From Oxalobacter formigenes (GTDB lineage Bacteria > Pseudomonadota > Gammaproteobacteria > Burkholderiales > Burkholderiaceae_D), in NCBI RefSeq assembly GCF_002127965.1, contig NZ_CP018787.1:868001-932000 (forward strand): a stretch of DNA of 64,000 nucleotides. The letters run 5' to 3'. Positions 49,757-54,857 of the stretch are shown here, in pieces; the stretch's first letter is position 1; the number at the start of each line of letters is the position of its first letter. The notes under the pieces were generated by a model that saw only the letters and a list, made by a program, of their open reading frames with translations, was not told the DNA's origin and did no database searches. The position numbers and the translations under genes are program-made.

Positions 49757-49796
49757 TGAAAAAGGCGTGCAATTGGACAGTCTGATGTAAAAATAA

Positions 49797-49835
49797 AACC
49801 TGCCGGTTTCGAAAGAACAGGCGGGTTTGTTTTTT
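49797..49835 (+). terminator. Terminator of the NPI-repeat gene
   Basis: The stem AACCTGCC / GGCGGGTT with one wobble pair is followed by TGTTTTTT. Confidence 0.85.
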
Positions 49836-49916
49836 GAATATATTCTATATTTTTATATAATATGTTTTAATATAATAAATGTCATCCGATCAGTCTATTT
49901 GATGAAAGAATATTTT

Positions 49917-51581
49917 ATGGAACCGAAACAGATCGTGGTTATTGGTGGTGTGGCAGCCGGGGCGTCCTTTGCTGCACGTGTTCGCCGTTTGAATGAGCAT
50001 GCCAGAATTATCCTTGTCGAACGGGGAAAGGACGTATCTTTTGCCAATTGTGGATTGCCCTATTACATTGGTGGAGAGATTCAAACACGTGGTGCATTGT
50101 CTGTGCAAACACCTGAGACATTGAAGGCTTTGCTGAATCTGGATGTTAAAACGCATACGGAAGCGATCAGGATTGATCGGGAAAAAAAACAGGTTTATGT
50201 GAAAAACATCATTTCCGGAGAGGATGAATGGCTTGATTACGACAAACTGATGCTTGCACCCGGCGCTTCACCCCGTATTCCTGATGTGCCCGGTATTCAT
50301 CATGAAAAAATTCTGACGCTTCGCAATCTGGCTGATATGGACAGGATTAGCGAGGTTGCGAAAGCAGGAAAACGAGCTGTTGTTGTCGGGGCCGGGTTTA
50401 TCGGTCTGGAAATGGCGGAGCAGCTTCATCGCAAAGGCTTATCCGTTGAAGTAGTCCAGTATGGTCCTCAGGTTTTGCCGCAATTGGGCAAGAGAATGGC
50501 GAAGCTGCTTGAGAATGAACTGGTACAGCATGGGATCGTCCTGCATTTGAATGACCGTGTCGTACGATATGAAAACAGGAATTCGATATTGGAGTGTTTT
50601 CTCGAATCGGGAACCGTTCTGAAGGCGGATTTTGTCGTTTTGTCAGTCGGTGTCGAACCTGAAAGCCGCCTTGCACGTGAAGCACATCTGGTTCTGGGCA
50701 AGAACGGCCATATTGTCGTGAATGATTTCATGCAGACGTCCGATGCGGATATTTATGCTGCCGGTGACGTGGTCGAAACGGCTCATCGCCTCTCTAACGA
50801 GCGGACGGCTGTGCCATTGGGAGGTCCAGCCAACCGCCAGGGACGTGTCGCGGCAGACCATATTTTTCTGGGTGAAAAAGCACGGCCTTATCCCGGTTCG
50901 CTCGGCACCGCTATCGTTCGTGTTTTCGGGACGACTGCCGGAACAGTCGGCTGGTCAGAAAACGCACTTGAGAAGAACGGACGTTCTTACGGAATGGTGA
51001 CGGTCAACGATTTTCATCATGCCGGTTATTATCCCGGTGCCAAACCATTGGTATTGACTGTTTTCTGGGACAGGGATACGGATGTGTTGCTCGGGGCGCA
51101 GGCCGCCGGTCAGGAGGGGGTGGACAAACGGCTGGATGTGATGGCGACGGCAATCGCGGCGCAAATGACGATTGACGATCTGGTTCATCTTGAACTGGCA
51201 TACGCTCCGCCATTCGGTTCGGCAAAGGATATCGTCAATATTGCGGGGTTCGCGGCCACGAATAAGCGTGACGGGCTGGTCGATACCATTTCTGAATTGC
51301 CAGACAATCCGGATGCCCAGATTATCGATGTTCGAGCCAAGGCGATGGCTGATGCCGATCCGGTTGCGGGGGGCATCAATATTCCCATGCCGGCGTTGCG
51401 CAATCATCTCGATCGTCTTGATCGCGACAAACCGGTTGTTACGGTCTGTGCTCTCGGCAAGAACAGTTATTTCGCTTCGCGTATTTTGAAGCAGAACGGT
51501 TTCGACGTCAAAAGTCTTGAAGGAGGAATGAAGATGATGACGACCGGACGTGCCGGTTTATCCGGTAAAAAAGACGAATAA
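49917..51581 (+). CDS. CoA-disulfide reductase with C-terminal rhodanese domain
   Basis: A 554-residue flavoprotein of the CoADR-RHD class. The FAD-binding Rossmann motif is VVIGGVAAGASFAARVRR (7-24). The single redox-active Cys45 is in DVSFANCGLPYYIGG. The NAD(P)H motif is AVVVGAGFIGLEMAEQL. The dimerisation domain follows (about 330-450) and the rhodanese domain (about 465-554) keeps a Cys in VTVCALGKNSYFA. The family reduces CoA disulfides, persulfides or polysulfide. The upstream region is very AT-rich with two TATAAT motifs. It converges on the decarboxylase operon. Confidence 0.92.
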   Translation: MEPKQIVVIGGVAAGASFAARVRRLNEHARIILVERGKDVSFANCGLPYYIGGEIQTRGALSVQTPETLKALLNLDVKTHTEAIRIDREKKQVYVKNIISGEDEWLDYDKLMLAPGASPRIPDVPGIHHEKILTLRNLADMDRISEVAKAGKRAVVVGAGFIGLEMAEQLHRKGLSVEVVQYGPQVLPQLGKRMAKLLENELVQHGIVLHLNDRVVRYENRNSILECFLESGTVLKADFVVLSVGVEPESRLAREAHLVLGKNGHIVVNDFMQTSDADIYAAGDVVETAHRLSNERTAVPLGGPANRQGRVAADHIFLGEKARPYPGSLGTAIVRVFGTTAGTVGWSENALEKNGRSYGMVTVNDFHHAGYYPGAKPLVLTVFWDRDTDVLLGAQAAGQEGVDKRLDVMATAIAAQMTIDDLVHLELAYAPPFGSAKDIVNIAGFAATNKRDGLVDTISELPDNPDAQIIDVRAKAMADADPVAGGINIPMPALRNHLDRLDRDKPVVTVCALGKNSYFASRILKQNGFDVKSLEGGMKMMTTGRAGLSGKKDE

Positions 51582-51584
51582 AAA

Positions 51585-51616
51585 AACAGCCCGTTTTTGA
51601 TCAAAAACGGGCTGTT
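51585..51616 (-). terminator. Terminator of the antiporter-decarboxylase operon
   Basis: A perfect 16-bp inverted repeat (AACAGCCCGTTTTTGA and its complement) with a T7 tract on the minus strand. Confidence 0.93.
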
Positions 51617-51627
51617 CGGGTTTTCGA

Positions 51628-52899
51628 TCAGGCTTTGCCGGATTTGACCGTTGCAATACGTGCATTGATCGGGATGTTCGAACTGTCCAGTCCAGGTGTC
51701 TGGCCGTGCAGGTCAAATTCAAGATTGACGCCCGGGCGGAAGAACAGACAGTGAGTCGATCCCCCGAAATGGAACATACCGGTCTGTTGTCCTTTTGTGA
51801 GGTGCTGGCCTTCATAGACGTGTACATCACAGGTGGATACTTCAGCCATACCGACTGCCATGAAACACATGAGTCCGATAGCCGGATCGTCCGCCTCGAT
51901 AAAGATCAGGGCGCGTGTCGCGACTTCGGCAATGTAGCCTTGAGAATCGTTCGGGCCGGCAGGATCGCTTCCTTCCGAGAGCGTTTCGGAATAATAAGTA
52001 CCTTCAATCAGCCTGGTCTTGACGACAGTACCCGAGACAGGGGAATGCCAGCGGTGATAACTCAGTGCGGAAAGAAATGCCTGATAGATCGTGCCCCCGA
52101 CAAATTGCTCGGCGAGCGGATCGTTATCCATCATGAACTGGAGAGCGTAAGGTTGTGCCTTGAGCCAGAATTTGTCTCTTAACTGGACGTTATGGGCAAT
52201 TCGGTATGGAGCCGATTCACAGGCATTGACGATAACGGCTGTATTGTCAGGTTCGGCAACCGGTCGCACGCCGTCACGGAATGGGCGCGTAAAGAAATCG
52301 TCCCAGGAGGTGAATCCATAGTGAGGTTTGGATGGATCACACTGGAATTCTTCTGCAAATTTGGGCATGGCCTTTTTTGCATCTGCACCAAACCAGCCAT
52401 TTTTCGGATCGTCTGACAGGACGGCTGTACTTTCCGGAGAAGAAAGATAAACAGCCCATTCATTCAGGATGGCTTTCAAATGGGCATTGATCTCGTCGGT
52501 CAGAAAAGCTGCCCAGCCGCCAGTTGTTGCCATGGACCAGTCCAGAACGGCGTTGAAAGGACAGCCGACCAGACCGGTATCGTTATACTCCGGTGCATGT
52601 GTCATCATGACATTGAACAGGCGCAACATGTGGTTGTAATCACGAACCTGTGGCAAACCTGATGGAGATTTTGTTTCATTCGCCGGAACCTGATTGAACA
52701 TCTGCGTGAAAAACATATACGCTTTCGGGTTGCTTTCGATGAAATTTTTGAAATTTTCAAGTGTCGGCGACAAAGGACGGGTACTGGCCGCTTCCTTGTC
52801 CATGGTTTTTTTCATCCATGCATTCAGGGTTTCCTGATCGGAAGGCATCCATTTTCCGGCGAGAAAGGTTTTTTTGATCGGTTTTTGTGGTGTGTTCAT
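51628..52899 (-). CDS. Phosphatidylserine-decarboxylase-like pyruvoyl enzyme (candidate amino-acid decarboxylase)
   Basis: A 423-residue protein with an N-terminal PSD-associated (PSDC) region (about 20-190) and a C-terminal PSD catalytic domain (about 200-423). The self-cleavage motif GGST (Ser381) would yield a 43-residue pyruvoyl alpha chain. HRWHSPVSGTV supplies the conserved His region. The same two-domain layout occurs in PSD-like enzymes that decarboxylate free amino acids, for example fungal tryptophan decarboxylase PsiD. There is no N-terminal membrane anchor. It follows an amino-acid antiporter gene by 73 bases with a GGAGC ribosome site, which argues for a soluble amino-acid substrate. 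Confidence 0.85.
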   Translation of the reverse strand: MNTPQKPIKKTFLAGKWMPSDQETLNAWMKKTMDKEAASTRPLSPTLENFKNFIESNPKAYMFFTQMFNQVPANETKSPSGLPQVRDYNHMLRLFNVMMTHAPEYNDTGLVGCPFNAVLDWSMATTGGWAAFLTDEINAHLKAILNEWAVYLSSPESTAVLSDDPKNGWFGADAKKAMPKFAEEFQCDPSKPHYGFTSWDDFFTRPFRDGVRPVAEPDNTAVIVNACESAPYRIAHNVQLRDKFWLKAQPYALQFMMDNDPLAEQFVGGTIYQAFLSALSYHRWHSPVSGTVVKTRLIEGTYYSETLSEGSDPAGPNDSQGYIAEVATRALIFIEADDPAIGLMCFMAVGMAEVSTCDVHVYEGQHLTKGQQTGMFHFGGSTHCLFFRPGVNLEFDLHGQTPGLDSSNIPINARIATVKSGKA

Positions 52900-52972
52900 T
52901 GTCGCTCCATAAACTTGGTTAGTTATATTCAGGTGTTGATAGACAGATTGAATTCCAGCCCGGTTTGTCAGG

Positions 52973-54487
52973 TCAGGGTTTGTAAACGGTCGGAAGCGCT
53001 CCGGTAAAAAGCATCCAGATGGCTATGATCGACAGGACGACGAGCGCAAGCGCTATGAAAATCTCGATCTTCGTAAAGACAGGTTCGTTTGGCGCGTTTT
53101 CTTTACGTGCCCAGATAAACACGATCAGTCCTACGGCATAGACGAAAGTGCCGACGAGCAGATATTGCAGACCGGCCGAATACACGAGCCACAAGCCATA
53201 GAATGTCGCAATCACACTGACGAGAAGAGCCATTTTTGCGCTGTACTTCGCTTTTGCAGGGTATTGTTTTGTACCGATCAGCTTCCATAAATATCCGGCA
53301 GAACCGATATAGGCAGGCAAAAGAACGACGCCCGTAATGGAAAGCATGACGTTCCAGGCATTGTTCGAGAAATACACCAGCAACATGGCAAGCTGCATGA
53401 TCACGGTGGAAACCCACAGTGAGATGGACGCAATGCCGTTTTTGTTGGTTTTGCCGAAAATTTTCGGGAAGGTACCGTCCCTGGCGCAAGCCCATGGCAG
53501 CTGCGCTACAAGCAATGTCCAGACAAGCCATGACGACAGAAGAGCGATGATGACGCCGAGATTGATGACGACTTCACCCCATGTACCGACCAGTTGTTTC
53601 AAAATGGCGGCAGTCGAGGGAGGTGCCATAACGGACAGTTCTCCCTGGGACAGAAAACCGAAGGGCAGCACGGACACGATGACGTACATGATTGACACTG
53701 TCAGAAAACCCAGAATGGTTGCTCGGCTGACGGTTCGAGGCGAAGCCTTGTCAGACATCACGACGGCGCCTTCAATACCGATGTACATCCACAAGGTCAC
53801 CAGCATGGTGCTTTTGATTTGTCCGAAAACGTCGCCGAGAGGTTTGTCGGCCAGGGCATGGCTGGATACATTGCCCCAGAAGTCTGTCCCGAAGAGATTG
53901 CCTCTGAAACAGAAGTATCCGGTAATAAGAATGAACAGGATGATCGGGACGAATTTGGCAAAGGTACCGATATTGTTCAATATCGTGGCACCTGTGATGC
54001 CCCGCATGACGAAGAGACTCAGGGTCCAGATGATGACTGAGGCCAGAAGCACAGCTTCCCATGTGTTTCCACCTTTGAAGTATGGCGGAAAGAAATAATT
54101 CAGGGCATCCATCAGCAGGACAGCATAACCGACATTACCGAATGCGGTGGACATCCAGTATCCCCATGCGATCAGAAAGCCGACGAGTTTGCCGAATCCG
54201 GCTCGGGAATACATGTATATTCCCGATGTCATGTCAGGACGGACATCGGCCAGTACCTGAAATGTTCTTGCCAGAAAGAAAATACCCGAAATGGTGACGC
54301 CCCATGCGATGAGAATGGCACCTAACGCGGCTGATTGCGCCATGTTTTGTGGAATATTAAACACACCTCCGCCGAACATGGCACTGACGACAAGAAGTGT
54401 CATGGCCAGAACGCCCAACTGTTTTTTGGCGTTGGCAGCCGTACCCGTCTGATTGTTACCCGTTTGACCTGACGATGAATCAGCCAT
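52973..54487 (-). CDS. APC-family amino acid/polyamine antiporter
   Basis: A 504-residue inner-membrane transporter with about 12 helices and the APC-superfamily helix 1 motif VSAMFGGGVFNIPQNMA. TLWMYIGIEGAVVMSDKA and SWLVWTLLVAQLPWACARDG match the basic amino acid/polyamine antiporter branch (ArcD/AdiC-like). Such proteins exchange an amino acid for its decarboxylation product. It is the first gene of a two-gene operon with the PSD-like enzyme. A clear AGGGAA ribosome site precedes the ATG. The substrate is unknown. Confidence 0.9.
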   Translation of the reverse strand: MADSSSGQTGNNQTGTAANAKKQLGVLAMTLLVVSAMFGGGVFNIPQNMAQSAALGAILIAWGVTISGIFFLARTFQVLADVRPDMTSGIYMYSRAGFGKLVGFLIAWGYWMSTAFGNVGYAVLLMDALNYFFPPYFKGGNTWEAVLLASVIIWTLSLFVMRGITGATILNNIGTFAKFVPIILFILITGYFCFRGNLFGTDFWGNVSSHALADKPLGDVFGQIKSTMLVTLWMYIGIEGAVVMSDKASPRTVSRATILGFLTVSIMYVIVSVLPFGFLSQGELSVMAPPSTAAILKQLVGTWGEVVINLGVIIALLSSWLVWTLLVAQLPWACARDGTFPKIFGKTNKNGIASISLWVSTVIMQLAMLLVYFSNNAWNVMLSITGVVLLPAYIGSAGYLWKLIGTKQYPAKAKYSAKMALLVSVIATFYGLWLVYSAGLQYLLVGTFVYAVGLIVFIWARKENAPNEPVFTKIEIFIALALVVLSIIAIWMLFTGALPTVYKP

Positions 54488-54701
54488 AGTTTTTCCCTTG
54501 TTAACGGTTGTTCGAATGTATTGTTAGGGAGTGGAATGAGGATGTATTAGTTCCGTTGTTCAGACCGATTCACTCCGGTTGAATTGTTTTTTTTCAAGAA
54601 AAAAGGGATGAGTCTGAAAAAGAGAACTGCTATTGACGCATCTGGTAGAAAACGGGATTGACTGCGGGAAGTTTGCCGTCTTTGTGAAAAGAAAAACAAA
54701 A

Positions 54702-54732
54702 AACCCGTCACATCCATGAGAGATGACGGGTT
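54702..54732 (-). terminator. Terminator downstream of tRNA-Ser
   Basis: The stem AACCCGTCA / TGACGGGTT is followed by a T-rich tract on the minus strand. Confidence 0.85.
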
Positions 54733-54763
54733 CGTTGCTTTCTCTTACTACTAAAATGAATTC

Positions 54764-54857
54764 TGGCGGAGATGAAGGGATTCGAACCCTTGATACGAGT
54801 TTTGGCCCGTATGCTCCCTTAGCAGGGGAGTGCCTTCGACCTCTCGGCCACATCTCC
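54764..54857 (-). tRNA. tRNA-Ser (anticodon GCT)
   Basis: A 94-nt class II tRNA with a long variable arm. The acceptor is GGAGATG / CATCTCC, the anticodon loop CTGCTAA lies between ACTCCC and GGGAGC, and the T loop is GGTTCGAATCC. The 3' CCA is encoded. Confidence 0.96.

Follow-up and report, generated by a model that had tools for sequence, protein, structure and literature searches.

The window analysed here, a stretch of 64,000 nucleotides from Oxalobacter formigenes, carries a two-gene operon in which a basic amino acid/polyamine antiporter is followed by a pyruvoyl enzyme of the phosphatidylserine decarboxylase (PSD) fold. The operon probably encodes an arginine decarboxylation/arginine-agmatine antiport cycle, a bacterial analogue of AdiA/AdiC whose arginine decarboxylase would be a pyruvoyl enzyme of the PSD fold. 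A sequence-only reading of this DNA had proposed a pump that takes up an amino acid, decarboxylates it and exports the amine. Its architecture and the general idea of the mechanism hold. The analysis establishes the gene pair, the fold and family of the enzyme, the recurrence of the pair and the fact that phosphatidylethanolamine synthesis does not depend on it; the substrate arginine, the arginine/agmatine exchange and the physiological role are what we infer for it here.

Gene organisation and genomic setting

Two minus-strand open reading frames separated by 73 bp make up the operon (Table 1), in exact agreement with the order, antiporter first, and the outer limits read earlier from the letters. 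GGAG and AGGGA-like purine-rich sites precede the starts of the antiporter and enzyme genes. The strong terminator claimed for the end of the operon was also found; as it sits between convergent genes, with an oxidoreductase gene across the gap, it may end both transcripts. At 49827-51581 (+), inside the segment absent from the nearest complete relative (genome G049), a CoA-disulfide-reductase-like FAD protein is encoded, with a C-terminal extension that is rhodanese-like by eye; its homologues elsewhere in the genus have 65-66% DNA identity.

Table 1. Features of the antiporter-enzyme locus (window positions)
Feature	Position	Strand	Basis or remark
ArcD-like antiporter of the APC superfamily for basic amino acids/polyamines (504 aa); leads the pair	52973..54487	-	TIGR00905
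Pyruvoyl enzyme with PSDC-PSD domains (423 aa); candidate arginine decarboxylase, processing predicted at Gly380-Ser381	51628..52899	-	PF12588 + PF02666
Intrinsic terminator: 15-pair stem, loop of 4, then T-run	51584..51617	-	Between convergent genes
tRNA-Ser(GCT), adjoins segment absent from nearest relative	54764..54857	-	ARAGORN
Segment of ~5.0 kb: oxidoreductase + enzyme + antiporter	49757..54763		267 bp in G049; syntenic flanks on both sides

In G049 the flanks lie in the same order, with 267 bp replacing the 5.0 kb of the window, so the pair was either gained here or lost elsewhere. The far side of the insert showed no direct repeat matching the end of the tRNA, and the G+C content of the insert (0.49) equals that of the window; a recent foreign origin is thus not proven.

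The enzyme and its relatives

The enzyme belongs, by its sequence, to the PSDC-PSD (PsiD-like) pyruvoyl decarboxylase family, and self-cleavage is predicted. The N-terminal PSDC region and the GGST motif with Ser381 named in the sequence-only reading are both present: PSDC (PF12588) covers residues 44-177 with 162 bits (gathering score 23.4), PS_Dcarbxylase (PF02666) covers residues 199-396 with 121 bits (gathering score 22), and G379-G380-S381-T382 is invariant across 18 relatives together with Y281-H285 (YHRWH). Likewise, the lack of a membrane anchor stated there agrees with the N-terminus (MNTPQKPIKKTF...), in which no obvious signal or membrane segment was seen by eye. Elsewhere, PsiD-like enzymes in MAGs of Bacteroidales, Acidobacteria and Desulfovibrio (L008, L009, L011, L015) carry signal- or Tat-like leaders at their N-termini, a hint that some pyruvoyl decarboxylases are located beyond the cytosol.

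Among solved structures, the best sequence match is 9jer (252 bits, E 7e-74), with PsiD reaching 241 bits and E. coli PSD 36 bits. The structure model of the enzyme (mean pLDDT 78.8) gives the same picture, with Z 27.5 against PsiD (8x4q), 26.6-26.9 against 9jer/9jf5, each over about 315 aligned residues, and 12.7 against E. coli PSD. The entries 9jer and 9jf5 are titled 'Arginine decarboxylase in Aspergillus oryzae', and 9jf5 has arginine bound. Fold matches below the PSD family (IIA-Glc, M23/LytM) were set aside, as they probably share the barrel arrangement only. The homology to the A. oryzae arginine decarboxylase and to PsiD strengthens the earlier suggestion that the enzyme would act on a free amino acid.

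To our knowledge, the only characterised close relatives are fungal. In the enzyme tree, the window enzyme forms a clade with those of Enterobacter, Klebsiella, Pseudomonas, UBA2767 and two Victivallis members (support 96/91). No relative is encoded on viral contigs. PsiD-like enzymes lacking an adjacent antiporter also occur on large plasmids of Lactobacillus intestinalis (L063) and Plesiomonas shigelloides (L064), where they are annotated as phosphatidylserine decarboxylase family proteins.

The antiporter

The transporter had been assigned to the basic amino acid/polyamine antiporter type, and its score of 503 bits exceeds the subfamily cut-off of TIGR00905 (409). The equivalog cut-offs of the arginine-ornithine antiporter ArcD (TIGR03810, 471 vs 591 bits) and the arginine/agmatine antiporter AdiC (NF007929, 162 vs 574) are not reached, nor is the cut-off of the histidine-histamine antiporter (NF040512, 430 vs 725). 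The antiporter inclines to the arginine-ornithine exchanger model, yet stays below its cut-off.

Its best solved relative is AdiC. AdiC residues Y93, N101, W202, E208, W293 and Y365 correspond to Y110, N118, W233, E239, W323 and Y393 of the window antiporter, and I205 and T294 are also kept; among these positions are residues by which AdiC holds and gates arginine. The conserved site residues point to an AdiC-like working of the antiporter. Most of these positions are kept as well in the PotE-type antiporters of Klebsiella (L004) and Pseudomonas psychrophila (L007), in which I205, T294 and T361 differ. Cousin antiporters elsewhere have as partners PLP enzymes whose annotation names ornithine or lysine, indicating that this branch handles a range of cationic amino acids.

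Probable substrate of the enzyme

The neighbouring genes of close relatives narrow the substrate. AguA and AguB together convert agmatine to putrescine. Klebsiella sp. BIGb0407 (L004) has the order aguB-aguA-potE-enzyme and P. psychrophila HA-4 (L007) has aguB-potE-enzyme, with enzymes 71.5% and 69% identical to that of the window, and the aguA and aguB genes of these clusters score above their equivalog cut-offs. As the clusters lack the step from arginine to agmatine, this would be the natural job of the enzyme, with agmatine as the product and arginine as the substrate. The same neighbour-gene logic was used for SpeD-derived enzymes and followed by biochemical confirmation, according to PMC10407285. 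A Lichenicola plasmid (L112:4935-9095) carries antiporter-PvlArgDC-aguB-aguA followed by an IS5 transposase, its antiporter being 42% identical to that of the window. This cassette would turn arginine into putrescine and bring its own exchanger along, and PvlArgDC beside a cousin antiporter means that two unrelated pyruvoyl enzymes fill the same slot. With moderate confidence, the substrate can thus be narrowed to arginine, with agmatine as the predicted export.

The same module might instead take L-ornithine and release putrescine, like SpeF/PotE. The antiporters of Klebsiella and P. psychrophila score above the PotE (putrescine-ornithine) cut-offs, in Caballeronia a cousin antiporter (47%) is found together with an ornithine decarboxylase and the arginine deiminase pathway, and the window antiporter itself leans to an arginine-ornithine exchanger. 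However, aguB and aguA would then have no clear purpose in the enzyme clusters, and the best-matching homologue of known structure decarboxylates arginine, so that ornithine appears unlikely.

Another amino acid, namely lysine, histidine or an aromatic one such as tryptophan, which would make the enzyme a true bacterial PsiD, is quite unlikely. PsiD is almost as similar to the enzyme as the arginine decarboxylase: the window enzyme agrees with PsiD in 136 of 320 columns and with the arginine decarboxylase in 144, while 27 family-conserved positions side with the latter and 21 with PsiD, counted over sequence columns. Owing to this near-equal closeness, sequence alone does not fix arginine against tryptophan, and residue signatures tried as a test of this specificity gave no separation. 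A cousin antiporter adjoins a lysine decarboxylase and cadB, and the histidine-histamine model does match the window antiporter. Nevertheless, that match falls far below its cut-off, the aguB/aguA neighbours speak for arginine, and no aromatic-acid gene was found in the clusters examined.

Proposed cycle and metabolic context

By analogy with AdiA/AdiC, the antiporter would import L-arginine, and the cytosolic PSD-fold proenzyme would cleave itself at Gly380-Ser381 to form the pyruvoyl group. The mature enzyme would decarboxylate arginine to agmatine with the consumption of one cytosolic proton, and agmatine, bearing one more positive charge, would exit via the same antiporter. Each turn would remove a proton from the cytosol and move net positive charge outward, providing acid resistance and/or proton motive force.

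The rest of the genome bears on the fate of agmatine. No agmatine deiminase was found in it, which suggests that agmatine is an export product and not a putrescine precursor by that route; a divergent arginase-family protein is encoded. The genome also has a 753-aa PLP decarboxylase of the Orn/Lys/Arg type (L106:6169-8430, near 2010618), below all specific cut-offs, and no antiporter was recognised near it in the list of open reading frames. Together with the missing agmatine deiminase, this existing enzyme favours export over polyamine synthesis, although it was also counted against the arginine-pump reading.

A reading in which the enzyme decarboxylates arginine to supply polyamine synthesis, the antiporter only balances pools and the pair contributes to neither proton motive force nor acid resistance is accordingly very improbable. 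The Klebsiella cluster, which leads on to putrescine, would fit such a role. Besides the two genomic features just given, the antiporter varies less than the enzyme: on Photobacterium damselae plasmids it is 75% identical to that of the window and the enzyme only 48%.

Oxalobacter is thought to live almost only on oxalate. An oxalyl-CoA decarboxylase over its cut-off is present in the genome, so the pair would be a second decarboxylation system; the 'second' in the earlier proposal of a second decarboxylation energy system fits in this respect, and the pump itself is what the arginine cycle would add. If true, Oxalobacter would gain a second means of energising its membrane or of surviving acid.

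Distribution of the gene pair

The earlier proposal had made its case depend on conservation of the pair in relatives, and the outcome is divided. Within the genus, both genes are absent from all 12 other genomes, one of which (G137) has just an ordinary PSD-domain protein 29% identical to the enzyme. The pair nevertheless recurs in unrelated lineages, plasmids included, and with two antiporters, ArcD-like and PotE-type, that are non-orthologous. The proposed search for co-occurrence of antiporter and PSDC-PSD genes thus came out positive.

ArcD-like antiporters stand beside the enzyme in the window and at L003, L062, L118 and L065 (antiporters 66-75% identical), and PotE-type ones at L004 and L007. 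The MAG UBA2767 (L003) has both genes, 73 and 72% identical; they are convergent and hence not one operon there. On the conjugative plasmid pUPC1 of Enterobacter cancerogenus (L062), antiporter and enzyme are both 69.5% identical. A genome of the gammaproteobacterial class (G722) keeps the same order with a 45 bp gap (68 and 66% identical), and its pair adjoins an IS3 transposase fragment. All 4 plasmid antiporters above 60% identity have the enzyme as a neighbour or at the matching place on the same plasmid. Antiporters of this branch (E 1e-60) occur in 6 of 369 genomes of the class and the enzyme in one, the Oxalobacter genome itself; since both genes are so rare, their repeated adjacency is not due to chance. 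No antiporter adjoins the enzyme in the two Victivallis members of the clade, and most of the more distant enzymes are likewise without one. The gene of the plasmid enzyme was found in no E. coli genome.

Two further arrangements are worth recording. Directly upstream of the pair on pUPC1 (L062:570-4202) lie yfdX and an EmrAB-like efflux pair; yfdX in E. coli belongs to an acid-response region. In P. psychrophila (L007:2390-7269), aguB-potE-enzyme follows shortly after a tRNA-like sequence, with a cytochrome oxidase operon beyond. The latter looks like an island insertion, and the window pair likewise lies beside a tRNA (tRNA-Ser).

Separation from the housekeeping decarboxylase

Had this been the only psd in the genome, the enzyme would have been needed for phosphatidylethanolamine. 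A second, canonical psd of about 216 aa is present (NF003680, 367 vs 262 bits), adjoining pssA (128 vs 107 bits), so lipid synthesis does not need the enzyme, which is free for another role. The enzyme itself scores far under the cut-off of every PSD equivalog model matched in NCBIfam (95 bits against 371 in one case, 45 against 112 in another), and the proposed phylogeny placed it well apart from Psd, across a branch with 100/100 support. Despite its PF02666 domain, it is scarcely credible as a phospholipid-making phosphatidylserine decarboxylase with an accidental antiporter neighbour, given the failed cut-offs, the canonical psd-pssA, the tree and the recurrence of that neighbour.

Relatives of the enzyme carry the annotation 'phosphatidylserine decarboxylase family protein'. 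If the family consists of amino acid decarboxylases, many genomes carry a mistaken lipid annotation, and an overlooked source of agmatine or another amine exists in gut and marine bacteria.

Comparison with known systems

In the literature searched, nothing was found on bacterial PSD/PsiD-like amino acid decarboxylases with antiporters, and with the terms used the gene did not turn up in the Oxalobacter proteome and genome papers searched. The novelty claimed for the pump holds only in part: pumps that couple antiport to decarboxylation are known, as is a PSD-fold arginine decarboxylase, and it is their combination in bacteria that was not found in this literature.

The arginine-dependent acid resistance system AdiA/AdiC of E. 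coli shares the layout of a decarboxylase with an APC antiporter, as well as the substrate-site residues of AdiC. It differs in that AdiA is a PLP enzyme and the window antiporter falls on another branch, far below the AdiC model. AaxB/AaxC of Chlamydia joins a pyruvoyl arginine decarboxylase to a basic amino acid/polyamine antiporter. This system and the Lichenicola cluster resemble the window pair, as predicted here, in both components, whereas their enzymes have the PvlArgDC (PF01862) fold and that of the window the PSD fold. The SpeD-derived arginine/ornithine decarboxylases (PMC10407285) likewise use a pyruvoyl group to act on cationic amino acids and show a link to aguA/aguB or speB, but they have the AdoMetDC fold and are biosynthetic, and no antiporter is mentioned in the text searched.

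The nearest enzymes are fungal. PsiD, the L-tryptophan decarboxylase of Psilocybe cubensis (8x4q, 8zia), shares the fold family at 37-40% identity, but works in fungal secondary metabolism and lacks several positions common to the bacterial enzymes and the arginine decarboxylase, e.g. Q320 and F244-W245. The A. oryzae arginine decarboxylase (9jer, 9jf5, 9jfn) shares the PSDC-PSD fold family and the pyruvoyl processing motif, with 38-41% identity in structure alignments; it is fungal and we know of no antiporter partner for it, and the activity of the window enzyme on arginine is a prediction. In PMC12283126, citing Murakami et al. 2024 (AEM), it is given as a separate, convergent pyruvoyl-dependent arginine decarboxylase. 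As far as we found, the PSD fold has been reported for arginine decarboxylation only in a fungus. Set against these systems, the chances are evenly balanced that the pair represents a third kind of arginine/agmatine antiport pump, with a PSD-fold enzyme in bacteria, at least two antiporter pairings, carriage on plasmids and, in an oxalate specialist, the role of a second decarboxylation-driven proton pump. If true, yet another pyruvoyl fold would have been independently recruited to the same antiport cycle.
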